DNA from: Pragia fontium DSM 5563 = ATCC 49100
GTDB taxonomy: Bacteria; Pseudomonadota; Gammaproteobacteria; Enterobacterales; Enterobacteriaceae
DNA: 64,000 nucleotides
Assembly: GCF_900112475.1 (NCBI RefSeq)
Contig: NZ_FOLW01000006.1
Span: 124,001-188,000 of the forward strand
Reading direction: 5' to 3'
A model generated the notes under the pieces. It did no database searches, was not told the origin of the DNA, and saw nothing but the letters and a program-made list of their open reading frames with translations. Below, piece after piece: positions 39,776 through 55,166 of this stretch. The position numbers were made by a program, and so were the translations under genes. Within the stretch, counting starts at the first letter, position 1, and each line of letters begins with the position of its first letter.

Positions 39776-40060
39776 TTAATATGCGTCACTTTCCATTGAA
39801 ATCAGATAAAGATAGCGATCAACGACCACTGGATTAACTCCCAGATTTCGACAAATTTCTGCCCTGGTTTTTCCCTCATCGTACATGGACTCGACCTGAC
39901 GTAGAATCTTCCCTTCGTGCCCCTGATAAATATAGTTAATCTGAAATGTTCGTTTACAGTTTGAACAAAAATACCTTTGTAACCCAGAACGAGCTTTTCC
40001 GTGTCTACGAACACAGTTTCTCTCGCTACAATGATGACATATAATCAGACGACTTTTCAT
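39776..40060 (-). CDS. Orphan IS1 InsA-like DNA-binding protein
   Basis: 94 residues that resemble the whole InsA protein of IS1 (about 91 residues). A zinc ribbon has Cys8/Cys11 and Cys32/Cys35 (ICHHCSERNCVRRHGKARSG, QRYFCSNCKRTFQ), followed by a helix-turn-helix (about 54-85, RAEICRNLGVNPVVVDRYLY). The ATG at 40060 has GGAGG seven bases upstream; an upstream in-frame start at 40147 lacks one. No InsB transposase frame follows and no IS1 ends were seen. InsA alone binds IS1 ends and represses transcription, so this may be a domesticated regulator next to the type I secretion operon; a relic of an IS is the alternative. Confidence 0.7.
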   Translation of the reverse strand: MKSRLIICHHCSERNCVRRHGKARSGLQRYFCSNCKRTFQINYIYQGHEGKILRQVESMYDEGKTRAEICRNLGVNPVVVDRYLYLISMESDAY

Positions 40061-40255
40061 TTCAATACCTCCATATATCTCACGCCCTGAAAAGCGATAG
40101 CAACGGCTGTACGCATTTTCTGCCTTAAGTGGCATTTTGGAACACAACGATTAACCGATTGTGCCAATTTGTTTCAGACAGGATAAATCTGTTGATAAAT
40201 CAATTCCTTTTCCTGTCACAAAACAAAACTTCATTATTTTTCAAAACTTCACTTT

Positions 40256-41956
40256 TTATTGATTAAGTGGACTGTTTTTGATGGTAGACACGTTCAGCTG
40301 ACCTAAACTTGAAGCTAACGCAAGCCGGGCCAAGTGCCAGTCCACCATGGTATTTACATTATTCATTTGCGCTTCTGACAGGTCGTTTTGCGTATTGAGT
40401 AATTCTAAGATGCTACCGACGCCAGATTGATAACGACCACGAGCAATGTCATACGCTTTACGTGATGACGCGACTAATTCACTCATATTTGTTAGATTAT
40501 TTTGCGCGGTTGTTAATCGTTGATAGGTTTGCCATACCTGTAGCGCAATATCTTGCCGAGTTTGAGCTAACTGATTCTTTGTCAGCTCAACTTTATTTTG
40601 CGCTGTCCTTACTGCGTTATACTGGCTAAAACCGCTAAATAGAGGAACTTTGACGTTAACCCCCATATACAGCTCTTCGGTATCATAGCCAGGACCGTAT
40701 TTAAGGCGATCGTTGCCCCAACGGGAGGTAAAATAGACCGAGGGTAGAAAGCCCCTCTTTGCCACATCAAGCTCTTTCTCTGAAACCCTTATCTGTTCTT
40801 TCGCCGACAACAACTGTGGATGTTGATTCAACGCCTTCTCAATCAGTTGATTAATATCATTAAGAGAGCGCTGAGAAGGCACCGTTAAACCACGTTGGAA
40901 ACTAATGTCTTTAGTAATATTTTTCCCCAACACTGAGGCCAGAGCACCCATCGCATTGCGCACATCACCTTCCGCTTTAATACGATAGTTTGTGGCTGAT
41001 AAGGCGGCGTTTTTAGCCTGTAATTCATCCGCTAATACACCAATTCCCGCTTCACGCTTAGCCTTGGTAACCTGTAGGCTCTTATAAGCGATCAGTTCGA
41101 TATCTCGGGCAGCGTCCAAATAAGCTTCAGCAGCGATAACGGAAAAGTATTTCTGAGCAGAATCCAGAACCACATCCTGTAAATCAGATAGCGATAAAAA
41201 CTCTACGGCTATTAATTCACTTTTCGCGCGGTCTACGCTAGCTTCTCGCTGGCCAAAATCGAATAAAAGCCAACTCAGCTCCAAGGTGTGTGCCCAGGAC
41301 TCCTTTTTAATATCAATATCTTGCCCTTCAACCTTAGTCGTGTTGTCGGTATGATTAAAAGATGAAGTCAGATCTACCGTCGGCATATAACCGGCATAAC
41401 TACCGTCTTTGGCAATTTGATAATGGCGTAAATTCAGCCAGGTCGCCTTAGCTTTAGGGTCGTTACACATCGCTAACACAACGACCTCATAAAAGCTCAG
41501 CTTGTTCTTACTCGCCGCGTTCGTCAGGCAAATATCCGGTTCCATTCCCTTCTTCACGGAGAAATCTTGTACTACCACCTGATTTTGAGCCGGCGGCGGC
41601 GTCAATGAGGTTGACTGAGATAATGACTGCTCGGGTTGCGATAATGGTGACTCCGTTGAGATCTCATTTGAACCTTGATAGGTCGATGAAACCTTGGTCC
41701 ATGTTTTCCCCTCGGATTGCTGAGCAACCCTATTCGGATTGGCTTTAACTTCTCTCAGATATTGTGTTGCATCCGGCAATTCCTTAAGGGAGGTTTCGCT
41801 TTGCGGTATGGATACAGCTCGACTCTCCCCGGTTGATACCGGTCTTGATGTTGCAATATCATCAATGAAATTGTGTACATTGTTTACTGCGCTACTGGCA
41901 GTTCCAACCGGAAACAGGACTGAATAAATCAGGCTGGCAAGAAGTATCTTTTTCAA
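40256..41956 (-). CDS. TolC-like outer-membrane channel of the microcin-type exporter
   Basis: 566 residues: a signal peptide (KKILLASLIYSVLFPVG), an unusual polar linker of about 110 residues (rich in Ser, Gln, Pro) and then a TolC/AggA-type outer-membrane efflux domain (LDLTSSFNHT region, WLLFDFGQREASVDRAKSEL, YQSGVGSILELLNTQNDLSE). It would provide the outer-membrane exit for the CvaA/CvaB-like pair encoded just upstream; its start codon immediately follows their stop. TolC homologues normally begin the barrel-helix repeat soon after the signal peptide, so the N-terminal linker is odd. Confidence 0.85.
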   Translation of the reverse strand: MKKILLASLIYSVLFPVGTASSAVNNVHNFIDDIATSRPVSTGESRAVSIPQSETSLKELPDATQYLREVKANPNRVAQQSEGKTWTKVSSTYQGSNEISTESPLSQPEQSLSQSTSLTPPPAQNQVVVQDFSVKKGMEPDICLTNAASKNKLSFYEVVVLAMCNDPKAKATWLNLRHYQIAKDGSYAGYMPTVDLTSSFNHTDNTTKVEGQDIDIKKESWAHTLELSWLLFDFGQREASVDRAKSELIAVEFLSLSDLQDVVLDSAQKYFSVIAAEAYLDAARDIELIAYKSLQVTKAKREAGIGVLADELQAKNAALSATNYRIKAEGDVRNAMGALASVLGKNITKDISFQRGLTVPSQRSLNDINQLIEKALNQHPQLLSAKEQIRVSEKELDVAKRGFLPSVYFTSRWGNDRLKYGPGYDTEELYMGVNVKVPLFSGFSQYNAVRTAQNKVELTKNQLAQTRQDIALQVWQTYQRLTTAQNNLTNMSELVASSRKAYDIARGRYQSGVGSILELLNTQNDLSEAQMNNVNTMVDWHLARLALASSLGQLNVSTIKNSPLNQ

Positions 41957-44116
41957 TTAATTACCCTCCTCTGCTACCGGCTCGGCGGTTTGGAAAAGCT
42001 CAGCCGGTGTCAGCTCCTGTCCTACGGTTCCATTTTCAATCACAATAATTCGATCGACCATAGCCAAGGTTTGTGGACGATGAGCAATAACTAAACGGGT
42101 AATGGCTAATTGACTAACGGACTGGTTAACCAACTGTTCAAGTTGAACGTCGAGATGACTGGTCGCCTCATCAAGAATGATGAGCTGAGGTTGCTTATAC
42201 AACGCTCGGGCTAATAAGATTCGCTGTTTCTGACCACCGGATAAGGCAATCCCCATATCACCAACTAACGTGTTGTATTGCATAGGCATTTGTTCGATAT
42301 CATGATGAATCGCCGCCATACAAGCACATTTAACCGCCAATTCATGATTAATGTTGTGATCAAAGAAGGTGATATTGTCCAGAATCGATCCAGCGAACAA
42401 CACGTCATCCTGCAATACGGTGGCACTAAAACGTCTGAGGTTCGCAACCGTCAGGTTTCTAATGCTAACGCCGTCAATCAGTATTTCGCCGGAGTTTGGC
42501 TCCAGACTACCGATTAGCAGTTGGCTTAACGTTGTCTTACCGCAGCCGGAAGCGCCGGCTAGTGCTACACATTCCCCAGGTTCAATGGTGAATGACACAT
42601 CATTAATCACCAATGGTTCATGTTCTGAATAGCGGAAACTGACGTTTTTAAACTCAATTCTCGGCGGTTTGGTTTGTGGGGCAACCTGCTTTTGTTCAAT
42701 GGCATCTTCAGGTTCAGTGAGTACAATATCAGCCAAACGTTCGGTTTGAATACTCAACATCTTCAATTCAAAATATTTATCGATCAGGCTACTAATACGG
42801 CTACTGAACTGCCCTTTATACGACGTAAAAGCCATCAAAACCCCAACGGTAAATGTTTGGTCCATGACCATCACCGCCCCCAATCCTAAGACCACTAAGT
42901 TTTCAATCCCGAACAGTAATCCGTTCAATTGCTGATAATAAATCTGTAGTTTTTGTACTCGAACGCCGGAGTTAACCTGCCGGACCAACAAAGCCATCCA
43001 ATCTGCAGTACGTTCCGCCTGACGTTGGAATAATTTGATGGTTCTGACGCCGCGTACCGTCTCTAAAAAGTGACTTTGCTGTTTGGCGCCATGGATAATT
43101 TGCTCCTCGGTTGCCATACGTAATGGCCGATACCAAAGGATCCGGCCAATAACATAAAACAGCATGGTGATCAGACAGATGGTTGCCAACATTGGGCTAT
43201 AGATATACATCATGACCAACGTCACAATCGTCATCAGACCATCGAGAATAGCCACAAAGAACGATGACGATAGCGTAGATTGAATCGCATCAACCGAACC
43301 AAAACGGGAGACAATATCGCCCAAGTGACGCTTTTCAAAATAACTAATGGGAAGACGCATCAAATGCCGAAATACGCTATCACGCCATTGCACACTGATT
43401 GATGTTGAAATATACATCATCACCCACGCACGTACGGCGGAAGTCAACTGCTGAACCAGCATCATAAAACCAAAACCGACGATCAAGGTTAGCAACAGAT
43501 TTTTATCATTCGAGACAATGACATAGTCAATAGTCCATTGAGTAAATAGCGGGGAGACAATACTAAATAGCTCAATCCCTAACGCCAGTATCAATACCTG
43601 AATAAAACTGCCTTTCAGACCGGTGATTTTGCCGATAAGATCCCTGAATCGAACGTGACGACGCTCCTCTTTGGCTTTAAATCCCTCATCTGGCCATAAT
43701 TCTACCGCTACACCAGTAAACGACTTTGATACTTCAGAAAATGTCAGTTGGCGAACGCCAAATGCCGGATCGTGAATAATGCATTTATTACCTTTAATCG
43801 CTTTCAAGACAACGAAGTGAGAAAATTCCCAATGCAGTATGCATGGCAGCTTAAGCTTAGGAAGTTCGTCAAGCTCCAGTCTCAACGAACGACTGTTCAA
43901 ATTTAGCTGCTTTGAAATATTCAATAATTGGCTAAGGTTGGCACCTTTTTGGGAAATACTGTATTTTCCCCGTAAGGTCGCCAAATCGATATTGTAATTA
44001 TAATAGCCAGCTATCATGGCTAAACAGGCCAGTCCACATTCAGCAGACTCTGTCTGTATCAGAACTGGTAAGCGCTGACTGGTTAATCCAAAGTTAATTT
44101 TCTTAACAAAACTCAT
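41957..44116 (-). CDS. C39-peptidase ABC exporter (CvaB/microcin type)
   Basis: 719 residues. The N-terminal C39 peptidase domain has the complete catalytic set: Cys27 (TESAECGLACLAMIAGYY), His100 (HWEFSHFVVLKAI) and Asp116 (CIIHDPAFG). A six-helix membrane domain follows at about 160-440. The nucleotide-binding domain has Walker A GASGCGKTT at 521-529, signature ALSGGQKQR and Walker B LIILDEATSHLD. Such proteins cleave double-glycine leaders and export bacteriocins or microcins together with a CvaA-like adaptor and TolC. The operon order is adaptor, this gene, TolC-like. No precursor gene was found nearby. Confidence 0.9.
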   Translation of the reverse strand: MSFVKKINFGLTSQRLPVLIQTESAECGLACLAMIAGYYNYNIDLATLRGKYSISQKGANLSQLLNISKQLNLNSRSLRLELDELPKLKLPCILHWEFSHFVVLKAIKGNKCIIHDPAFGVRQLTFSEVSKSFTGVAVELWPDEGFKAKEERRHVRFRDLIGKITGLKGSFIQVLILALGIELFSIVSPLFTQWTIDYVIVSNDKNLLLTLIVGFGFMMLVQQLTSAVRAWVMMYISTSISVQWRDSVFRHLMRLPISYFEKRHLGDIVSRFGSVDAIQSTLSSSFFVAILDGLMTIVTLVMMYIYSPMLATICLITMLFYVIGRILWYRPLRMATEEQIIHGAKQQSHFLETVRGVRTIKLFQRQAERTADWMALLVRQVNSGVRVQKLQIYYQQLNGLLFGIENLVVLGLGAVMVMDQTFTVGVLMAFTSYKGQFSSRISSLIDKYFELKMLSIQTERLADIVLTEPEDAIEQKQVAPQTKPPRIEFKNVSFRYSEHEPLVINDVSFTIEPGECVALAGASGCGKTTLSQLLIGSLEPNSGEILIDGVSIRNLTVANLRRFSATVLQDDVLFAGSILDNITFFDHNINHELAVKCACMAAIHHDIEQMPMQYNTLVGDMGIALSGGQKQRILLARALYKQPQLIILDEATSHLDVQLEQLVNQSVSQLAITRLVIAHRPQTLAMVDRIIVIENGTVGQELTPAELFQTAEPVAEEGN

Positions 44117-44141
44117 CCTTTATTCCCTATTCCTCTGGCTG

Positions 44142-45395
44142 TCAGTCAGCTGTTCTTTTTGTAATGCTTAACAAGGGTTCCAATACCCATTCATAAAGCC
44201 TTCTCTTATCCAGCGTAATATCCGCCTCGAGCTCCATCCCTGGTTGCAATGGCTTATCTTTTCCATATACCTTGACAAATTGTTGTTCCGGCTGAACGGT
44301 GATTTGATAAAGAGAAGCTTCATTGCTGATACTGGCTGTACTTTTCAGCTCATGCTGTAACAATGCCGTTTTAGAGATAGAGATAACTTTACCGCGATAC
44401 TGGCCAAATTTTTGATAGGGATAAGGTTGATAGCGTAACCAAACTTCCGCACCTTCCTGAATAAACCCAACCGCATTACTTGGCGCATAAAGATGAACCA
44501 GTAGTCTGGATCCTTCTGGAATAATACTGACCATAGGTTTGCTGTTGTCGACAAACTGCCCCGTTTGAGCCACAGCCGCTGTGATCGTTCCCGACTGAGG
44601 AGCCTGAATAATGATTTCACGCTTAGCTTCACTTTCAGCCAGTTCTTGTTTTGTTGAAGAGATATTTCGTTCTATCTGAGACTGTTGTTTATCAAACTTC
44701 AGTAATAAACCGTCTAACTCTGACTGTCGCCCAGCCAGCTCTTTTTGAGCATTAATCTTTTCTCGCTCATAGCTACTCAGCGCACTCTGTTGTTGGAGTA
44801 CCTCTTCTTTAACCCGCTCAAATTGTTCCAGAGAAATATACTCTTTTTTATAAATATCCTGATACTGCTGCTGACGTCGCTGCACTAACTGTAATATTTT
44901 TCTCTGATTAACAATTTGTTTGTCTAATGTATTCACTTGATTATTGAGCTGGTGAATATAGTTCTCGAGCAGTGATTTCTCCGCAGTAAACTGTTCGCGG
45001 TTTTTATCCAGATCTTCATTTAGAGAAGCCAAGCGAGACTGTATTTGTGTACTGATGGCCTGCTGTGTTCCACGATTGTTCGACGCTTCCCTTTCGCTGG
45101 AAATAATATAAAGAACGTCACCTTTATTAACCAACTCGCCTTCTTTGATCTTTTTATCCGTAACAACACCATACTGCTGGCTGTAAACCTTAATAACGCC
45201 TTTATCTGGCACCAATTGTCCCGTAACGGTTTGTTTTCGGGTATAGGAAAATAGTACGCAGAACACCACGATAAAAACGGTAGTGGTACAAACAAAAAAA
45301 GTAAAAAACTTCAGCGTTAAAGGTGTACTTAGCATCACGCTGCCAAGCCACTTTTGCTTTTCAGCCTGAAGAGCCTCCTGGCGAAATAGCCCCAT
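44142..45395 (-). CDS. CvaA/HlyD-like membrane fusion protein
   Basis: 417 residues. One N-terminal membrane helix (about 28-50) is followed by a biotinyl-like half (QQYGVVTDKKIKEGELVNKG), a long coiled coil (about 110-250, Gln/Glu-rich) and a beta domain (IIQAPQSGTITAAVAQTGQF, LQPGMELEADITLDKRRLYE). The length and C-terminal LYEWVLEPL match CvaA-type adaptors of colicin V secretion. It spans the periplasm between the ABC exporter and the outer-membrane channel. First gene of the minus-strand operon, starting at the edge of the 1-kb AT-rich divergent region. Confidence 0.88.
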   Translation of the reverse strand: MGLFRQEALQAEKQKWLGSVMLSTPLTLKFFTFFVCTTTVFIVVFCVLFSYTRKQTVTGQLVPDKGVIKVYSQQYGVVTDKKIKEGELVNKGDVLYIISSEREASNNRGTQQAISTQIQSRLASLNEDLDKNREQFTAEKSLLENYIHQLNNQVNTLDKQIVNQRKILQLVQRRQQQYQDIYKKEYISLEQFERVKEEVLQQQSALSSYEREKINAQKELAGRQSELDGLLLKFDKQQSQIERNISSTKQELAESEAKREIIIQAPQSGTITAAVAQTGQFVDNSKPMVSIIPEGSRLLVHLYAPSNAVGFIQEGAEVWLRYQPYPYQKFGQYRGKVISISKTALLQHELKSTASISNEASLYQITVQPEQQFVKVYGKDKPLQPGMELEADITLDKRRLYEWVLEPLLSITKRTAD

Positions 45396-46425
45396 AATCC
45401 CTCTTATCCTTAATATTTATGGTATTGCATATGCTACTGAGTGAGATGATTGTTCCAGTAAACCAACAGGGATTAGCCTGTCTTTACTAACTCAACTACC
45501 CTCAGTTTTTCTCAAATTTAAAATAAAAAAATCACACGCTATCATCCGGTTATTAATTACCCCCCGGTATTTGACGGTGTAATCTCACTAACATCTAAAT
45601 CATTATCTATTACATAACACTGAATTTTGCATAGACAGAATTAATAGCGTTTTATGTACAACGAAAAATATAACTTACTTCATATAAGAAGTTACTCATA
45701 AGAAATTAATAAAAACCTAATTACTTATTTGAAGTGGATACCAAAACATCACCCTTTATTAAAATAGACGCTATATTTTTTTGAGTGTATAACAACAGTG
45801 TAAATAAATGCAATGACAATTACTAACTTAAAAACATTTTACCTGACAAGCAATCTTATTATAAAGTGACTCTTAATAACTTAGAGAAATATGTCAATCT
45901 CAATCCTTCAAAAGTTACCATCAACCCTATATAAGTTATTTTCACTTACATAATAGTCGCGCCATGAAATTAATTAAAACGCATTCATTTTTAATCGATA
46001 AAAACAATGTTTAAAATTAACTCATTGATTTTACTTTAAAATAAAAAACAAAAAACCAAGAAGACACAGGTATCAAAGGAGTTCTAAAAAAAAATTAACA
46101 ACACCACACCACCACATAAGTATAACTTTGTTTTTATAAATGAAATCTAAATTATTATAAATCAGTACTTATTTTCATATAAAAACAGCAACATATCTTT
46201 TCTTTAAATTTGCATTATATATTTTTTTTGTTAAATTTGACTCGCACATAAATAAGCATATGAAGCCGAATGAGGAGGGAGTGGATTTGTTAGATTGAAA
46301 AATTTGACATTAATGCATTTAAACAAAATATAGAAAGTTACACTGTTAATGGAAACTATTAGCTGGTAATCCCCTTAAATTAAATATTTATCTTTAAAGC
46401 TAATTTTACACCTCAAATATAGGTT
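45396..46425. other. 1-kb AT-rich divergent region between two secretion operons
   Basis: A very AT-rich segment with many A and T tracts and scattered stops on both strands. I read all frames for short genes with ribosome sites, especially double-glycine precursors, and found none convincing. It must hold the promoters of both secretion operons. The length and composition resemble xenogeneic-silenced DNA bound by H-NS, which is inference. Confidence 0.65.
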
Positions 46426-49400
46426 ATGGATATGAAACTATACGTACAAAAAGCAGGGCAAGCTGTACAAGAAATGCCGTTGGATCTATCAACAAGCATT
46501 AGCGCAAACCCAGGCACTCGTTTATTTGTTGAAGGCAATAATGGCAACATCGCCAACATGTCTCGTTCTGGATCACAATTAGTGATTCATACCACAGACG
46601 GCAAAGTCATTAATGTTGATAACTTTTTCGGCCCAGCCGATCAGGCAATGAGTTCTATCACTATCGATAACGATCCTCAATCAGGCTTACCGGAAAAACA
46701 AATTGTTCTGGGTGATGAGCGTCTTTATGCTGATGGTAGCGAAGTTATTGCCTATACCCCAGAGCAATTAAAAGACGTTATCTCCGGTTGGGATTACTAT
46801 GAACTACGTGGCGAAGAAGGCGCAGTCGCTGAAGATGGTGATGATAATACCGGTTTATTTGTTGCATTAGGTTTAGGTGCTGCAGGCGTCGCAGGTCTTA
46901 TCGCTTTAGCCGTTGACCACAACAAAGATTCATCCTCTGGCTCTCGCGGTCCAAATCCAAGCGACGCGGGTGATGCAACGACTCTGACGATTAATCGTTC
47001 AAATGGTTCGAGCCTGTCTGGCGCAAGTGATGCGAAAAATACCACGGTTTATATTGATGTAAACAGCGATGGTCAGCATGACTTTACCGCGACAACAGAT
47101 GCAAATGGCAACTGGACTTTCCCTGCACCAATCACTATTCCTGATGGGGCAACGGTTACTGTTTGGGTTCTAAACAAATCAGGCGAAAAAGTACTGGTTA
47201 AAACCATTATTGACGCAACTGCACCTGATTCTGAATCCATGGTCGTTTCTCAGGATCTCAACGTTATTACTGGTAAAACCGAGCCTGGTGCAGTAATCAA
47301 GTTAGACGTAGATGGTGACGGTAAAACTGATTATGAAGTGAAAGCCGATGATAAAGGCAACTACAAAATCACTCTGGCCGATGGCACCGCATTAATTCCT
47401 GGCACCAGCGTCATCAGCATGGCGGATGACTTAGGTAACACAGCAAAAATCACTGTTCCTGTCACAACCAAAGCCACCATTATTGGTATGAGTGACGGTG
47501 AAAACGCCATCGATATCTCTGCTACCACTGAGATTACCTCACCAACTATCCATGGTCTGGGAACCCCAGGTTCTGTGGTAAACGTGATGGATGGTGATAA
47601 AGTTGTTGGCACCACCACCGTAGGCAAAGATGGTAATTGGTCAGTTAAAGTTGAAAATTTACCTGTTGGTAAGCATGATTTTGACGTTAGTACTGTGATT
47701 ACGGCACCAGTTACTGATTCAACCAAAACCGCTGATATCACTTTCGAACAAAAACCTTACAATATGTCTGTCATTACGGCTGACATTCGTGGAGTCGAAA
47801 CTGATAACGAGGTTGACGCACCAATTTCTATCACCCGTGCCCTGCCTAACGGCGGCTATCTGGTAGCTTATCCAGAAACCGAAGCACCGGGTTCTAAGTT
47901 CTATGATATTAAAGTTAAAATCTTTGATGCTCAGGGTGCGCTGGTTAATGAAATGACTCTGGGTGACAAAAATGTTGCCGATGGTTACAGCAGAGCAACT
48001 GCCCAACAATTCCTGAGTAACTTTGATGTTGCTGTATCACCTGTTGATGGCGCAATTACCGTGCTTTACGCCAAGAATGGTGACGCAACCAGCTATACCG
48101 GTCATGATGTGGTATTTGAGCGTTTCACCGCTGAAGGTACGCCAATTACCAACGGCCCACAGATGGTTAAAGCACATAATGATATCGGCGGAATGAATGG
48201 CTTCCTGAAAGAATGGCTGCCGGACAACGTTGCTGACTTCATTACCAATACTTTATCAGGCATCGTTAACCCAATTGCTGACTTCCTGACCAGCGCTCTG
48301 AAAACCATTGATTTCCTGCATATCCTTCCGGATACAGACTTCAAAGCAATGGTTGATGGCTTCGTGAATACCCTGACCAACCACATTGCTACCGCACTTA
48401 TCGGTCAAGGTGCACATAGCACCTCTATTATTCAAATGGAAGATGGTAGCGTTGTCTTTACCGGCAGCAACAACCGTGAACCTCTTGATTTAGAAAATAT
48501 CGTCGATAACCTAGATGTTTCTGGCCTGGTGAGAGAATTCTGTAGTGCTTTAGGTTTAAAAGGCATTCCAATCGTCGGTTCTCTGATCGATACCATCGTT
48601 GAAGGTATTCTGAAGCTGGCTGTTGAACCGATCGAGTCTATCGTTGATAAAGTACTGAGCTTCTTCGATTTCAACCTGTTAGAAGCGGGTACCAACCTGT
48701 ATAGCATGCGCTATGCTGAAGATGCTAACGGTAATCTGGTCAAGGTAAGTGACAATCTGGAAACCCCACATGACATCTTGTTAGGTGGCTTCCTGTCTGA
48801 AAATGGCTATATCACCACCAACAATGGCGTATTCGACAAAGTTTGTAACTTCCTGTTTGGAACTAACCCAGGTAGTGACAGCCAAGGCTTAGCCGGTTCA
48901 GATATCGGTGGCGGTCAATACGCGGTCGTATGGCAGCAGGGATGTAAAGACTGGTCTCTGGATCAATTCCTGAAGAATCCAATCGATCTGAAACTGTCTG
49001 TTGTTGACTTCAAAACTGGCAAGATCGTTCTGGATGGCGTTACCCTAAATACCAATGCACCTAAAGGTTCCGCTGACGTTGCACCTAAGATTGTTGCTCT
49101 GGATGACGGTACTTTCGCTGTTTCATGGGCACGCATTTCTGGCGGCGACAAAGGTGACTTACTGTTACAACGCTTCCAAATCGTAAATAATAAGTTAGTA
49201 CCGATTGATGCAGAGCCTACCGTAGTCAATACTACAACCGATGGTGCTCAAGGCGTTCTGATGAACACTTTGGTTGGCGCACACGACATCACTGTTCTGG
49301 AAAACGGAAACTATGTTGTCACTTGGGCCTCTATGACTACCGAAGGCGAGTCTCACGTTGTTTCTCGTGTTTTTGATATTTATGGTCAAGCAATCACGCC

Positions 49401-50073
49401 AGAAATCATTGTTGATAAAGGTGTTGACGATCCAGGTACGTGTTCACTGCCTTCAGTTGTTGCTTTGGCTGACGGTGGCTTTGCGGTTACCTGGTCTGAA
49501 GTATCAGATACCGGTGGCAACCTGTATAGCCGTACTTACAACAACGATGGTTCTATCCGTGGAACGGGTGAGCATGGTGATGTCACTAAGCCTGGCGAAT
49601 ATGTTGAAGGTAACTATGAATCGGCTGTCGGTACCGAAGGTCACGATGTTATTGACGGACTGAAAGGTGTAACTAAAGTGAATGCCGGAGACGGTAACGA
49701 TCACATTATGGTTATGTCTGACAAGTTCACTTCAATTGATGGCGGCAAAGGCTTTGATACCGTGTTCTTTGGTGATACCGAAGCGAAAACCATCGATTCA
49801 ACAACCTTAAACAAACTGAGCAACATCGAGCAAATCGATTTAAATACCACTTCCGCCCTGACGCTGGATGTTAAGTATGACGATCTGGTTAAGCTAAACG
49901 ATGAGAAGAAACTGTTTGTTAATGGTGATTCTGAAGACAAAGTTGATCTGGATTTAACCAGTTGGACTAACGTTGCTGTCGCTAACAAAAATGGCGTTGA
50001 ATACAATCTGTATGTCTACGATAAAGACGAAGATGCACAGATCTGGGTTCAAAACGGTATTTCTGTAATGTAA
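46426..50073 (+). CDS. BapA-like type I secreted surface protein with VTW repeats
   Basis: 1215 residues, no Sec signal. Residues 1-140 resemble the BapA/Bap prefix domain (RSGSQLVIHTTDGKVINVDN). A hydrophobic Gly/Ala stretch is at 143-163. Two to three bacterial Ig-like modules follow at about 180-440 (DANGNWTFPAP, DDKGNYKITLADG, KDGNWSVKVENLP). Five repeats of the type G-x-aromatic-(A/V/L)-V-x-W/Y occur at 476-482, 830-836, 895-901, 961-967 and 1017-1023. A helical, partly hydrophobic insert lies at about 590-760. The C-terminus has RTX-like GDGNDHI and a type I secretion target domain to the end. Four Cys (706, 807, 840, 1006) are unusual for such proteins. Probable adhesin or biofilm factor, exported by the system encoded next. 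A second in-frame ATG is at 46432. Confidence 0.85.
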   Translation: MDMKLYVQKAGQAVQEMPLDLSTSISANPGTRLFVEGNNGNIANMSRSGSQLVIHTTDGKVINVDNFFGPADQAMSSITIDNDPQSGLPEKQIVLGDERLYADGSEVIAYTPEQLKDVISGWDYYELRGEEGAVAEDGDDNTGLFVALGLGAAGVAGLIALAVDHNKDSSSGSRGPNPSDAGDATTLTINRSNGSSLSGASDAKNTTVYIDVNSDGQHDFTATTDANGNWTFPAPITIPDGATVTVWVLNKSGEKVLVKTIIDATAPDSESMVVSQDLNVITGKTEPGAVIKLDVDGDGKTDYEVKADDKGNYKITLADGTALIPGTSVISMADDLGNTAKITVPVTTKATIIGMSDGENAIDISATTEITSPTIHGLGTPGSVVNVMDGDKVVGTTTVGKDGNWSVKVENLPVGKHDFDVSTVITAPVTDSTKTADITFEQKPYNMSVITADIRGVETDNEVDAPISITRALPNGGYLVAYPETEAPGSKFYDIKVKIFDAQGALVNEMTLGDKNVADGYSRATAQQFLSNFDVAVSPVDGAITVLYAKNGDATSYTGHDVVFERFTAEGTPITNGPQMVKAHNDIGGMNGFLKEWLPDNVADFITNTLSGIVNPIADFLTSALKTIDFLHILPDTDFKAMVDGFVNTLTNHIATALIGQGAHSTSIIQMEDGSVVFTGSNNREPLDLENIVDNLDVSGLVREFCSALGLKGIPIVGSLIDTIVEGILKLAVEPIESIVDKVLSFFDFNLLEAGTNLYSMRYAEDANGNLVKVSDNLETPHDILLGGFLSENGYITTNNGVFDKVCNFLFGTNPGSDSQGLAGSDIGGGQYAVVWQQGCKDWSLDQFLKNPIDLKLSVVDFKTGKIVLDGVTLNTNAPKGSADVAPKIVALDDGTFAVSWARISGGDKGDLLLQRFQIVNNKLVPIDAEPTVVNTTTDGAQGVLMNTLVGAHDITVLENGNYVVTWASMTTEGESHVVSRVFDIYGQAITPEIIVDKGVDDPGTCSLPSVVALADGGFAVTWSEVSDTGGNLYSRTYNNDGSIRGTGEHGDVTKPGEYVEGNYESAVGTEGHDVIDGLKGVTKVNAGDGNDHIMVMSDKFTSIDGGKGFDTVFFGDTEAKTIDSTTLNKLSNIEQIDLNTTSALTLDVKYDDLVKLNDEKKLFVNGDSEDKVDLDLTSWTNVAVANKNGVEYNLYVYDKDEDAQIWVQNGISVM

Positions 50074-50082
50074 TTACCCCCC

Positions 50083-50106
50083 AAAGGGGCGGATTCTCGC
50101 CCCTTT
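50083..50106 (+). terminator. Hairpin between the adhesin gene and its exporter genes
   Basis: A 9-bp stem AAAGGGGCG / CGCCCCTTT (50083-50091 with 50098-50106) lies ten bases after the adhesin stop and has only a weak T tail. It probably reduces but does not stop read-through into the exporter genes, allowing more adhesin than exporter to be made. Also a possible 3' mRNA protector. Confidence 0.6.
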
Positions 50107-50185
50107 ATTAATTAATCATTATTACTTGATAGTTATTAATTAATAATTAGTTGTTTTATATAAATATGAAGGCAAAGGATTGGTT

Positions 50186-52279
50186 ATGGAATTCTCTCCA
50201 TGGAATGAATGCGTAACAATTATCGCTCGTGAGTTGGGCGTCAATGTTACGGTAAATAACTTACAGCACATTATTCAAAATGGCGGTAGTCATGATGAAT
50301 TAATGACTCGCCTGGTTGACCATATTGGCTTGAAATGTAAGAAGTTAGACGAAAAACTGGAGCGTATACCATCACTACTCTTTCCGGTATTTGTACCGTT
50401 GAAAGATAATCAGGCTGTTGTGGTTTTCAGTATTAATGAAAATAAAACTGCAACCGTTTCATTTAATATCTCTCCGGATATTAAAACCCAGATAGATTTA
50501 GAAAAACTAGAATCTTTAAGAGACGGTGAACTTTGGCTCGTCTATAACAAAGAGCGAGCTAAAGATAAACGAATTGATGATTTTCTTAAGCCGTATAAAG
50601 AGAACTGGCTATTACAGTTGATCTCCAAAGATGCCAGATTTTATGGTCAAATCGCTCTTGGCGCTTTGTTTGGTAATATTCTTGCCCTGTCCAGCGCCCT
50701 CTTTTCTATGCAGGTTTATGACCGGGTTATTCCAGCTCAGTCATACTCAACATTATGGGTACTGTTTATCGGTGTAACCGTTGCTCTTCTGATGGATATG
50801 GGATTACGCCTGGCCCGTAGCCACTTAGCCGATGCCATCGGTAAAAAAACCGATATGTTTATGTCGGGCATGTTTTTCTCTCGCGCATTAAGAATTAAAA
50901 ATGATGCCAGACCCAACTCCACTGGCGCTTTCGTGGCTCAGTTAAGAGAAATCGAGCATATTCGTGAACTATTAACCTCAACAACCGTTATTGCTATGGT
51001 TGATATGCCTTTTATTATTCTCTTCATTGGAGTTATCGCCTTTATCGGTGGCGAGTTAGCTTTTGCCCCACTACTGGCTATTCCACTGATTGTTATTCCG
51101 GGATTGATTGCCCAATGGCCTCTATCACGCCTTTCTCAACAAGGTATTCGTGAAAGCGCCATTCGCAACTCTATGCTGGTTGAAACCGTAGAAGGTCTCG
51201 AAGATATAAAAATTATGCAGGCAGAAGACCGTTTTCTTCGCACCTGGAATGAATGTAATACCACCACCGCCCAGATTTCTCTTGAACAGCGTCATTGGGC
51301 AAGCCTGATTACTAACTGGTGTCAGTTTGTTCAACAGCTGGTTTATATCAGCGTTATCGCGATTGGGGTTTATCTGGTCATTAATAACGATATCACTACC
51401 GGTACGTTAATTGCCTGTTCCATTCTCTCCAGTAGAACCGTAGCGCCATTAGGCCAATTAGCGCAGGTATTAACCCGCTGGCAGCATGCCAAAATGGCAA
51501 AAACTGGACTAGATGAATTCCTGAAAAAACCATTAGATCAAAAACCTTTTGATGAAACACTTCATACGGATTCGATCAAAGGTAACTTCAGCTTAAGAGA
51601 TGTGAAATACCGCTTTAATCAAGAGTCTCCTATGGTGTTAAACATTAACAGCCTCAAGATTACCCCGGGAGAAAAAATCGCCATTTTAGGCTCTATTGGT
51701 GCAGGTAAATCAACTTTACTCCGTCTGGTATCCGGTATTGCCGAAGCAACTGAAGGTGAATTGCTGCTGGATGGGCTGGTGATGAAGGATATATCCAATA
51801 ACGATATCCGCCGAGATGTTGCTTACCTTCCTCAAGGCGCACAGTTGTTCCACGGCACCATTCGCGAAAATCTGATCTTGGGTAAACCTCAGACCTCAAT
51901 AGAGCAGATTGTTGAAGTACTCAATATTGCTGGCGCCGCCAGTTTATTAAAAACCGGTAAAGGGTTGGATTTATCGATTGCGGAAGGTGGTCGAGGATTA
52001 TCCGGTGGGCAAAAGCAAACGCTCCTGTTGGCCAGAACGCTATTACGCAACTCCCCCATTCTATTTCTCGATGAACCGACTGCCAATATGGATGAAAAAT
52101 TGGAAAACCACGTAGTGAATGCTTTAGGCAGTCATATAAAAGATAAAACTTTCATTATTGTCACTCACCGTCAGGCACCGCTCAAACTGGTCGATAGGAT
52201 CATCGTGATGAGCCAGGGAAGCATTGTTCTTGATGGGCCACGAGATCAAGTCTTACAAAGACTGAAATCATCAAATTAA
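50186..52279 (+). CDS. Type I secretion ABC exporter (LapB-like, degenerate C39-like domain)
   Basis: 697 residues. The N-terminal ~130 residues are C39-like but the position of the catalytic His motif reads VFVPLKDNQAVVVFSINE, so no His or Asp triad is present and the domain probably only binds substrate, as in HlyB and LapB. A membrane domain (about 150-430) and an ATPase domain follow, with Walker A GSIGAGKST, signature LSGGQKQT and Walker B ILFLDEPTANMD. The ATG at 50186 has AAGGA at good spacing; an upstream TTG is not favoured. It exports the BapA-like protein encoded just upstream. Confidence 0.9.
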   Translation: MEFSPWNECVTIIARELGVNVTVNNLQHIIQNGGSHDELMTRLVDHIGLKCKKLDEKLERIPSLLFPVFVPLKDNQAVVVFSINENKTATVSFNISPDIKTQIDLEKLESLRDGELWLVYNKERAKDKRIDDFLKPYKENWLLQLISKDARFYGQIALGALFGNILALSSALFSMQVYDRVIPAQSYSTLWVLFIGVTVALLMDMGLRLARSHLADAIGKKTDMFMSGMFFSRALRIKNDARPNSTGAFVAQLREIEHIRELLTSTTVIAMVDMPFIILFIGVIAFIGGELAFAPLLAIPLIVIPGLIAQWPLSRLSQQGIRESAIRNSMLVETVEGLEDIKIMQAEDRFLRTWNECNTTTAQISLEQRHWASLITNWCQFVQQLVYISVIAIGVYLVINNDITTGTLIACSILSSRTVAPLGQLAQVLTRWQHAKMAKTGLDEFLKKPLDQKPFDETLHTDSIKGNFSLRDVKYRFNQESPMVLNINSLKITPGEKIAILGSIGAGKSTLLRLVSGIAEATEGELLLDGLVMKDISNNDIRRDVAYLPQGAQLFHGTIRENLILGKPQTSIEQIVEVLNIAGAASLLKTGKGLDLSIAEGGRGLSGGQKQTLLLARTLLRNSPILFLDEPTANMDEKLENHVVNALGSHIKDKTFIIVTHRQAPLKLVDRIIVMSQGSIVLDGPRDQVLQRLKSSN

Positions 52280-52292
52280 CAGGGATGACAAA

Positions 52293-53534
52293 ATGAGTTT
52301 TTTTAATAAAAAGAAAAGAATCGCCAATATTGGTGAACAAGAGATGGGTAAAAACACCACCATTATTTGGTTGATATTAATCACCTGTTTTGTCCTGATT
52401 GTTTGGGCTAACTTTGCCGAATTAGATGAAGTGACCAACGGTCAGGGAACCGTTGTTACCTGGAACCGCTCGCAGGTTATTCAGACCCGCGATGGCGGTG
52501 TGATCCGTGAATTGATGGTGCGTGAAGGCGATATCGTTACTGCTGGTCAACAACTGGCGATCCTGGATGCCACACGCTTTCAGGCGGGTTATAACGAAAT
52601 TGGAGCTAAAGTAAAAGCCTTAGCGGTCAGCATAGCTCGCTTAACCGCTGAAATTAAAGATGAAAAAGGTAGACCCGATTTTGTCTTACTGTTACGTGAA
52701 TATAACAGCGGCATTGAAGATAAAAACCTCAGTGATAAAGAACTGATGGATGAGAATAAAGTGCTTATCGATCATGAAATGTCCCTGCTGCTTTCTCGCC
52801 GCAGAAGTCTGGATGAAAATGTCTCGGGTTTACAGCGTAGCCTTAAGCTCACGCAAAACGAATTAAACCTTATCCGACCACTGGTTACCAAAGGTGCAGT
52901 AAGCCAAGTGGAAGAGCTACGTTTAAGACGTGAAGAAAACGAACTGAAAAATAAGGTCACGGAAGCACGAAATCACTATTTTGAACAAGCCAAAGAAGAA
53001 TTGGTGAAAAAGAAAAATGAACTGGACTCTATCTATTTCCAACTGCTGCAACGAAAAGATCAGCTTGCTAGTACCATTATTGTCTCTCCGGTAAAAGGAA
53101 TTGTAAAAGACGTTCAGGTAACGACCGTTGGTGGCGTACTTGAGCCTGGCGGTAAATTGATGGAAGTCGTTCCTTCAGAAGATCAGCTATTAATCGAAGT
53201 AAAAATCAATCCACGCGATATCGCTTTTATCCATCCGAACCAAAAAGCTATCGTGAAGGTTAGTGCTTATGAATCATCTATCTACGGCACCATGGATGCC
53301 ACAGTAGAGCGTATCTCTCCAGATACCATTCAGGATCAGGTACGCCGTGAACAATATTACTACAAAGTTTTCGTACGAACAGAGCGTTCAGCGCTTGAAA
53401 CACCAGACGGAAAGCTCCACGAAATTGTTCCAGGGATGTTGGCCACGGTAGATATTAAAACAGGGAAAAAGACGGTCTTCGATTACTTAATCAAGCCGCT
53501 AAATAAAGCCAAAGAAGCACTGAGGGAAAGATAA
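52293..53534 (+). CDS. HlyD/LapC-type membrane fusion protein
   Basis: 413 residues: a membrane helix at about 24-43 (TTIIWLILITCFVLIVWANF), lipoyl-like halves (VVTWNRSQVIQTRDGGVIRE), coiled coil at about 100-240 and the C-terminal HlyD beta domain (ARDV-type DIAFIHPNQKAIVKVSAYES, GMLATVDIKTGKKTVFDYL). The typical C-terminus YLIKPLNKAKEALRER matches type I adaptors. It follows the ABC gene by 13 bases and abuts the outer-membrane channel gene with no gap. It links exporter and channel across the periplasm. Confidence 0.9.
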   Translation: MSFFNKKKRIANIGEQEMGKNTTIIWLILITCFVLIVWANFAELDEVTNGQGTVVTWNRSQVIQTRDGGVIRELMVREGDIVTAGQQLAILDATRFQAGYNEIGAKVKALAVSIARLTAEIKDEKGRPDFVLLLREYNSGIEDKNLSDKELMDENKVLIDHEMSLLLSRRRSLDENVSGLQRSLKLTQNELNLIRPLVTKGAVSQVEELRLRREENELKNKVTEARNHYFEQAKEELVKKKNELDSIYFQLLQRKDQLASTIIVSPVKGIVKDVQVTTVGGVLEPGGKLMEVVPSEDQLLIEVKINPRDIAFIHPNQKAIVKVSAYESSIYGTMDATVERISPDTIQDQVRREQYYYKVFVRTERSALETPDGKLHEIVPGMLATVDIKTGKKTVFDYLIKPLNKAKEALRER

Positions 53535-55166
53535 GTGACTAATTACAATAAAATAATGCTCACAATTGCGTTAACGTATTGCACAATGACAACCACGGAG
53601 CTAAGTGCTGAAACCATCAAGGAAACATTACAGATGGCCATTAACCGCTCTCCGACCATTAAATATCATACCGGGAGAATTGCTTCAGCGGAAAGTTCTA
53701 TTGGTGAGGCCAGAAGCGGCTGGTTACCCAATGTTTCACTCAACGCAGGTAATGAACTAACCAAAACCAATAAAGATAATAATAACAATGACGACGGTAA
53801 TACCTACTCACTAAAAGTTGAACAAAATATTTTCGACTTTGGTCGTACCGGCGATCGCGTTGATTACGCTGAGCATAACCGGACGTCAGAAGTTTACACC
53901 GCCTTCGATGAGGCGGAAGTGCTTTCGTCTAAGGTAGCCGAAATATATTTAAACATCCTTAAATACCAAGATCTTATTGATATAAACAAGAAAAATAGTA
54001 TTGAACACCGAAATATCTTAACGCTGGCGGAAGCCAGAGCCAGCGGTGGTGTGGATAGTCGTGGAGACGTAGAACAAGTAGAAGTCCGCATAAAAGGTCT
54101 TGATGCTGAGTTATCCAACTACGAAGCTCAACTGAAAGCCGCTCAAGAAGACTATTTAATTCTTGTTGGCAAGCGCCCTTCTGGTCTAAGCGTGCCTGAT
54201 GTAAAACAGCTGAAAAATAAGCTTAGCGGTCGAATGAAACAGCGAATCGCTAATTCTCCACGCGTAAAAGCAATAAAAGCCAACAAAGAAGCCGCAGCTT
54301 CTGAGTATGCTTACACCAGTAAAAGTTGGATGCCGGCATTAAGCGTGTCACTATCACAGGGAAAAACGACAACTTATGGTGAGAATGACACCTTAGTGAT
54401 GCTAAATATTAACAGTAACGTTTTTGACGGTGGTGGTGCGATTTATCGTAGCCGCGGGGCTGCACAACGGGTAGAAAGTGCCCGCTGGAACATTGAGAAA
54501 TCAATTGAAGACCTATCGACCAAAGTTTCACAAATGTATCAGGATGCACTCAGCCAGGAAAATCAGGCGAATATCTATGCTCAACGTATTATTCACTCTC
54601 AGGAAGTAAAAGAACTGTATCACGAGCAATACAAGGTAAATCGCCGTTCGGTCTTAGACGTACTCAACTCAGAGCAAGAATTTTTTCAAACCATGAGTAA
54701 TAAAGTAAATGCTGAATTTAACTTTAGAATTCTTTTAATTCGGGTATTCTCTGAGCTCGGTGAAATAAATAATGCATTCAATATCAAGGTCAATTTTGAT
54801 AAACAAAATGATGGAAATTTTGTCACTGACATGCTTGGATTTAATAATAGCCAAACCGAAAAACCTATAAACATCACTGAAAATCAGGCGCAGGTACAAC
54901 ACCCTGAAAATCAAAGAAAAATTGAATTAATTGAAACGTTAAGTGCTAAGGCGCCACTGGTTCAGGAAAAAAATATCGAAAAAAGAACCATTCTAGGCAC
55001 CTCGATCATAGATAAAAGTGCAGTAAGCACCCCATCGAATGACGCGAGTTTAAAATACGAAACTAAAAACATTATTCATGAAAATAAGATCAACGACCTT
55101 GATAATCAACAACCGGTTAAAGAAATAGAGGATCCATTGCTCCTGATTGGAGTTAGAAGCAAATGA
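53535..55166 (+). CDS. TolC/LapE-like outer-membrane channel with C-terminal extension
   Basis: 543 residues, GTG start immediately after the adaptor stop (GAGGGA ribosome site). A weak signal sequence (MLTIALTYCTMTTTELSA) leads into a TolC-family domain with two repeats (SSIGEARSGWLPNVSLNAGN, NIFDFGRTGDRVDYAEHN, NIFDGG-like NVFDGGGAIYRSRGAAQRVE, VNRRSVLDVLNSEQEFFQ). The last ~130 residues, after FRILLIRVFSELG and NIKVNFDKQ, are polar, low-complexity and Asn/Lys/Glu-rich, beyond the usual end of the fold. Third component of the plus-strand type I system. A decayed insertion sequence begins just after its stop, so the odd tail could partly reflect loss of the original end. Confidence 0.87.
   Translation: MTNYNKIMLTIALTYCTMTTTELSAETIKETLQMAINRSPTIKYHTGRIASAESSIGEARSGWLPNVSLNAGNELTKTNKDNNNNDDGNTYSLKVEQNIFDFGRTGDRVDYAEHNRTSEVYTAFDEAEVLSSKVAEIYLNILKYQDLIDINKKNSIEHRNILTLAEARASGGVDSRGDVEQVEVRIKGLDAELSNYEAQLKAAQEDYLILVGKRPSGLSVPDVKQLKNKLSGRMKQRIANSPRVKAIKANKEAAASEYAYTSKSWMPALSVSLSQGKTTTYGENDTLVMLNINSNVFDGGGAIYRSRGAAQRVESARWNIEKSIEDLSTKVSQMYQDALSQENQANIYAQRIIHSQEVKELYHEQYKVNRRSVLDVLNSEQEFFQTMSNKVNAEFNFRILLIRVFSELGEINNAFNIKVNFDKQNDGNFVTDMLGFNNSQTEKPINITENQAQVQHPENQRKIELIETLSAKAPLVQEKNIEKRTILGTSIIDKSAVSTPSNDASLKYETKNIIHENKINDLDNQQPVKEIEDPLLLIGVRSK

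Follow-up and report, generated by a model that had tools for sequence, protein, structure and literature searches.

A colicin V-type exporter operon of Pragia fontium and putative double-glycine precursors encoded at distant loci

The export operon described here most probably (at roughly three chances in four) encodes a class II microcin exporter of the MccV/McbC type that acts in trans on scattered, mostly glycine-rich peptides, a reading drawn from comparative sequence analysis. In the proposed mechanism, the C39 domain of the exporter would cut MRxLxxxEIExVxG(G/A) leaders, after GG/GA, off several small peptides encoded across the chromosome, and the CvaA/TolC conduit would release the mature peptides, as for MccV and McbC (PMC10233263, PMC2761928). 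The released peptides would most likely be antibacterial microcins or surface-held glycine-zipper bacteriocins. We infer both the cleavage and export of the remote precursors by this exporter, alone or with a second CvaAB pair, and the antibacterial nature of the products.

An intact exporter operon beside an adhesin locus

The window (the whole 64-kb stretch of DNA analysed) is part of contig C10 in a draft genome of 3.95 Mb. As originally predicted, CvaA-, CvaB- and TolC-like genes form one operon, which is borne out by the adjacency of the three type I exporter genes on the minus strand and by their profile matches (Table 1). The operon proper occupies 40256–45395; the span first proposed, 39776–45395, captured this anatomy correctly and at its left edge took in a separate IS1-InsA-like gene (39776–40147). 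The C39 catalytic residues Cys27, His100 and Asp116 are found exactly as claimed, the oxyanion residue Gln21 is likewise intact, and solved PCAT protease domains align to the C39 domain with the Cys, His and Asp matched. The Walker A (GASGCGKT) and LSGGQ motifs of the exporter are both intact. The operon has the parts that define a class II microcin exporter, namely a C39 domain with catalytic Cys, His and Asp, an adaptor and an outer-membrane channel. The exporter is under strong purifying selection (pN 0.07 versus pS 0.77 over 719 codons), and its C39 domain is 93% identical.

Across a gap of 1,030 bp lies a divergent BapA-like adhesin locus, and this exporter/adhesin neighbourhood, including the adhesin's own type I system, is conserved in all four genera compared (this one and the nearest named relatives for the gene, Limnobaculum, Leminorella and Budvicia). 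The conserved arrangement could be taken to mean that the adhesin is the cargo of the microcin-type exporter. We regard this as very improbable, given that an LssB-type exporter, adaptor and channel follow right behind the adhesin (TIGR03375, 802 bits against a cut-off of 693) and that the adhesin has no GG leader.

Table 1. Positions of the features discussed; those given without a contig (C) or locus (L) label are in the window.
Feature	Position	Strand	Remarks
Stand-alone IS1-InsA-like zinc-ribbon protein, 94 aa, no InsB	39779-40060	-	ATG at 40060; NF033558 7e-12
TolC/OEP-like outer-membrane channel, 566 aa, last gene of operon	40256-41956	-	OEP 9.3e-56; TIGR01844 193.8 bits (cut-off 225)
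CvaB-like peptidase-containing ABC exporter, 719 aa	41957-44116	-	Peptidase_C39 7e-38, ABC_membrane 1e-41, ABC_tran 7e-31
C39 peptidase domain, exporter residues 17-143	43688-44068	-	Gln21, Cys27, His100, Asp116
CvaA-like membrane-fusion adaptor, 417 aa, operon gene 1	44142-45395	-	HlyD_3 E 1.5e-17; TIGR01843 1.1e-39, under its cut-off
Gap between adaptor and BapA-like adhesin	45396-46425	.	No precursor or immunity gene here, in Limnobaculum or in Leminorella
BapA-like adhesin with LssB-type exporter, adaptor, channel	46426-55166		Adhesin 46426-50073; type I system 50180-55166; divergent from microcin-type exporter in four genera
Precursor, 67 aa	C7:85205		Two-gene cassette with C7:85433
Precursor, 102 aa	C7:85433		Two-gene cassette with C7:85205
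Precursor, 62 aa	C17:198357
Precursor, 72 aa	C17:198987
Precursor, 108 aa	C19:206751
Precursor, 99 aa	C19:207153
Precursor, 75 aa	C11:189973
C6 CvaAB pair	L009 9204-12627
C11 exporter (C11:1140)	L011 1-3272
Limnobaculum C26 ortholog of C6 pair	L182 4159-7911
Budvicia precursor and immunity-like ORF	L042 8049-8624
Further InsA-like loci	L074 6660-6932; L114, L115, L116, L118, L112, L117		Beside fimbrial operons, adhesins, a precursor cassette
Klebsiella sp. PL-2018 plasmid pmk4 locus	L050 1-9002

Precursor genes lie on other contigs

Microcin searches usually examine the DNA next to the exporter. In the present case, a six-frame scan of the 64-kb window for a GG, GA or GS motif 11–32 residues after a start gives no plausible GG precursor, this permissive scan returning implausible chance matches only, and the gap before the adaptor holds no ORF of at least 60 aa. 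The original prediction, that no precursor lies within several kb of the exporter on either strand, extends to the entire window, whose intergenic DNA has no precursor gene by either the six-frame scan or the ORF listing. A decayed precursor in the gap was also considered and rejected: tblastn with the precursor of Budvicia (see below) finds no match in the window. In alignment, the gap shows homology near its ends only.

A search of the whole genome, on DNA, with an MccV-type leader pattern (Ser or Asn before GG/GA) identifies MRxLxxxEIExVxG(G/A) leaders in seven precursor genes. These occupy four loci far from the operon, and none is on the contig of the window; the reversed control pattern gives 0 matches in the same genome. 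Such a search had been proposed with the original prediction, as had three explanations for the missing precursor. The first, a precursor elsewhere in the genome, is what we find. The other two, a product longer than a microcin and a precursor of a new type, do not fit genes that encode 62–108 aa, which is not unusually long, with classical 15-residue MccV-type leaders. The leaders fall within the expected 15–18 residues, end in GG/GA and are hydrophobic at −4, −7 and −12; these three positions are imposed by the pattern itself, and the real test is the excess over the reversed control.

The cores of all seven are glycine-rich (14–26% glycine), and across the 23 precursors examined in this genome and its relatives the content is 12–29% in 22 and 3% in one Leminorella candidate (G062_C2n). 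Known class II microcins have 12–26% glycine in the core (PMC11494933). Precursors of families A and B carry GxxxGxxxG motifs. None of the Pfam or NCBIfam microcin models reaches its cut-off on the precursors. Hydrophobic ORFs lie near the C19 and C17 precursors, and those at C19 are immunity-like; adjacent to the two-gene cassette of C7, no immunity-like gene is present in any of the four genera. The upstream regions of exporter and precursors were compared for a common motif; only A/T-rich words were recovered, nothing specific, against a control that preserved base content and not dinucleotide content.

Exporter orthologs and precursor families in related genera

Orthologs of the exporter are 89% identical in Limnobaculum allomyrinae, about 85% in Leminorella grimontii and 81% in Budvicia diplopodorum. 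The comparison of this locus among relatives, which the original prediction had called for, is informative in Budvicia, where a 106-aa precursor with a MRELNTNEIQEVSGA leader and a glycine-rich core, together with a 72-aa hydrophobic immunity-like ORF, directly precedes the adaptor of the orthologous exporter; both are absent from the window, from Limnobaculum and from Leminorella. Since the Budvicia ortholog has a local MRELNTNEIQEVSGA precursor, the exporter lineage carries the MRxLxxxEIExVxG(G/A)-type leader.

Leader matches number eight in Limnobaculum, four in Leminorella and two in Budvicia, against seven here, and are mostly scattered in the relatives. Over 38 genomes, a related leader pattern gives 50 matches versus 3 for the control. 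Of the 22 genomes that have a window-like exporter, 16 contain at least one match, compared with 3 of the 16 that lack such an exporter (Fisher p 0.0013). The six exporter-bearing genomes with zero matches mean that either the leader pattern or the link between exporter and precursor is incomplete.

The precursors are real genes, as the recurrence of the cassette, the spread of families across genera and the low dN/dS values all attest. The two-gene cassette of C7 (67 and 102 aa) is present in each of the four genera, at differing places. A W-core family is common to this genome, Limnobaculum and Leminorella, both members of this genome matching Pfam DUF5862, and a third family is common to this genome and Limnobaculum. 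Precursor pairs with a finite estimate have dN/dS of 0.12, 0.12, 0.15, 0.19, 0.22 and, in one case, 0.54, the synonymous sites of the remaining pairs being saturated; most pairs measured are, by these ratios, under purifying selection. The conserved cassette without an adjacent immunity gene is best read as the oldest cargo.

Candidate exporters for the precursors

This genome has three C39 exporters: that of the window, a CvaAB pair on contig C6 and an exporter on contig C11. The C11 exporter was rejected as the machine for the seven precursors; it is 28% identical and has a different precursor of its own just upstream. We note that this upstream precursor combines MKEIELHHGKKAVGG with the Cys-rich core CLIWKLICWKPCRPCKPKPPCGGGNGGGTGPR, is of another leader type, and has a tRNA-like sequence adjoining.

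The C6 pair is intact, has the catalytic Cys and is 43% identical to the window exporter. No local precursor was found at the pair in this genome; in Limnobaculum, where the ortholog is 63% identical, a local precursor is present and has a leader of the same type. A precursor present in the relative and missing here repeats the pattern of loss or absence seen in the window. The leaders alone do not separate the window exporter from the C6 pair as the machine, and one could imagine the window exporter to be a substrate-less relic, with the intact C6 pair exporting the scattered precursors. We consider this improbable in view of the purifying selection on the window exporter and of the situation in Leminorella, which has four precursor loci but no C6-type exporter. 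There, a search with the window exporter to E 1e-60, the level at which the C11-type exporter is picked up in other genomes, finds a single C39 exporter, the ortholog of the window's (86% identical), and the four loci, on three contigs, are all unlinked to it, linkage in both genomes being read from draft assemblies. The only candidate machine in Leminorella is therefore the window ortholog. Because Leminorella has the window-type exporter only, the window exporter is strongly suggested, on these genomic grounds, to be the exporter of the seven precursors as well; the C6 pair could share the cargo of this genome.

Nature of the exported peptides

If the exporter acts in trans, its cargo may be toxins, as we favour, or non-toxin GG-leader peptides that act at the surface, in biofilms or in signalling. 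Non-toxin GG peptides are already documented (PMC10233263), and the constant proximity of the exporter to the adhesin and its type I system, as well as the location of related InsA-like genes at fimbrial operons, would suit such a role. The C7-type cassette without an immunity-like gene in four genera is odd for a bacteriocin, and it counts against our preferred explanation; a conserved pair of this kind raises the question of whether the pair kills. The glycine content of the cores, the resemblance of the GxxxGxxxG motifs of families A and B to known glycine-zipper bacteriocins, and the immunity-like hydrophobic ORFs beside precursors in Budvicia and at C19 of this genome argue for toxins, and leave non-toxin cargo a possible, though rather unlikely, alternative to antibacterial microcins.

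Comparison with known systems

Machinery of this kind is known; what departs from published systems is the genomic layout. The closest counterpart is the Mcb system of Moraxella catarrhalis plasmid pLQ510 (McbA, McbB, McbC and McbI; PMC2761928), in which McbB, with a C39 domain, is 53% identical to the window exporter, and McbC, encoded beside McbB, has a MRELLLDEVRSISGG leader of the same type as the remote precursors (PMC2761928). In Mcb, the precursor and immunity genes directly follow the exporter, whereas the window exporter has no linked precursor. Microcin V (CvaAB-TolC, CvaC, Cvi) and other class II systems likewise use a C39 exporter, an adaptor, a channel and a 15-residue leader (PMC10233263), and the remote precursors resemble class II microcins in their mostly glycine-rich cores of 47–93 residues. 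Unlike in these systems, the channel gene lies inside the operon here. According to published accounts, the precursor and immunity genes of class II microcins are encoded close to the exporter (PMC11494933, PMC10233263), whereas here they are dispersed, some cassettes being without a visible immunity gene.

The cassette of 67 and 102 aa resembles the Cdz system of Caulobacter (CdzABCDI; PMC5380434), in which two adjacent small glycine-zipper proteins undergo type I export; the GxxxGxxxG motifs of the pair are like those of CdzC and CdzD, and its export is predicted only. The Cdz genes form a single cluster, a three-TM immunity gene included, whereas the pair lies away from the exporter and shows no immunity gene.

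Genomes with an exporter and no detected microcin in cinful/PCAT surveys likewise lack an obvious precursor nearby (PMC11494933); those searches accept matches near the exporter, whereas the precursors here are far from it. Dispersal by itself has a precedent, an unlinked class II bacteriocin gene having been reported from Xylella (PMC11885251), and exporter promiscuity is documented for class II microcins (PMC10233263). Apparently orphaned exporters can have their full set of cargo elsewhere, all MccV-type precursors found here being on other contigs. Should a single exporter handle many dispersed peptides, its cargo would be defined by leader recognition alone; Leminorella, whose sole exporter is unlinked to all four precursor loci, is a simple system for leader-defined cargo.

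Two loci outside the four genera are of separate interest. Pandoraea horticolens has seven leader matches on four contigs (L044, L122, L126 and L137), two of the precursors lying immediately upstream of the exporter. On plasmid pmk4 of Klebsiella sp. PL-2018, a related exporter (53%) has radical SAM, methyltransferase and lysine-acyltransferase genes as neighbours, and the locus may be a modified-peptide cluster.

InsA-like proteins

The InsA-like gene that follows the exporter operon is conserved in position in Limnobaculum and Leminorella, and its N-terminal part is found in Budvicia. An active IS1 was rejected, as no InsB ORF is present in the 400 bp behind the gene; between 38.4 and 44.5 kb, there is no IS1-end-like match within 3 mismatches. 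Small, diverged InsA-like proteins (about 85–95 aa) number 13, 16, 16 and 14 in the four Budviciaceae genomes. Several of the genes in this genome adjoin fimbrial operons, and one precedes the C7 precursors. Possibly, and this is a guess, the InsA-like proteins are domesticated regulators. One may go further and picture, for the Budviciaceae, one chromosomal C39 exporter serving a dispersed, evolving set of 2–8 glycine-rich peptides per genome, the ancient immunity-less cassette included, with domesticated, IS1-derived InsA-like proteins regulating exporter, peptides and adhesins as one surface-competition programme; this wider scheme is speculative, and we hold it to be doubtful. At a stricter cut-off, in a survey of 60 relatives, most other genomes have no InsA-like protein, this genome has 11 and Limnobaculum 15 diverse copies, and one genome (G023) has 21 copies of equal score, which is what an active IS1 would give.
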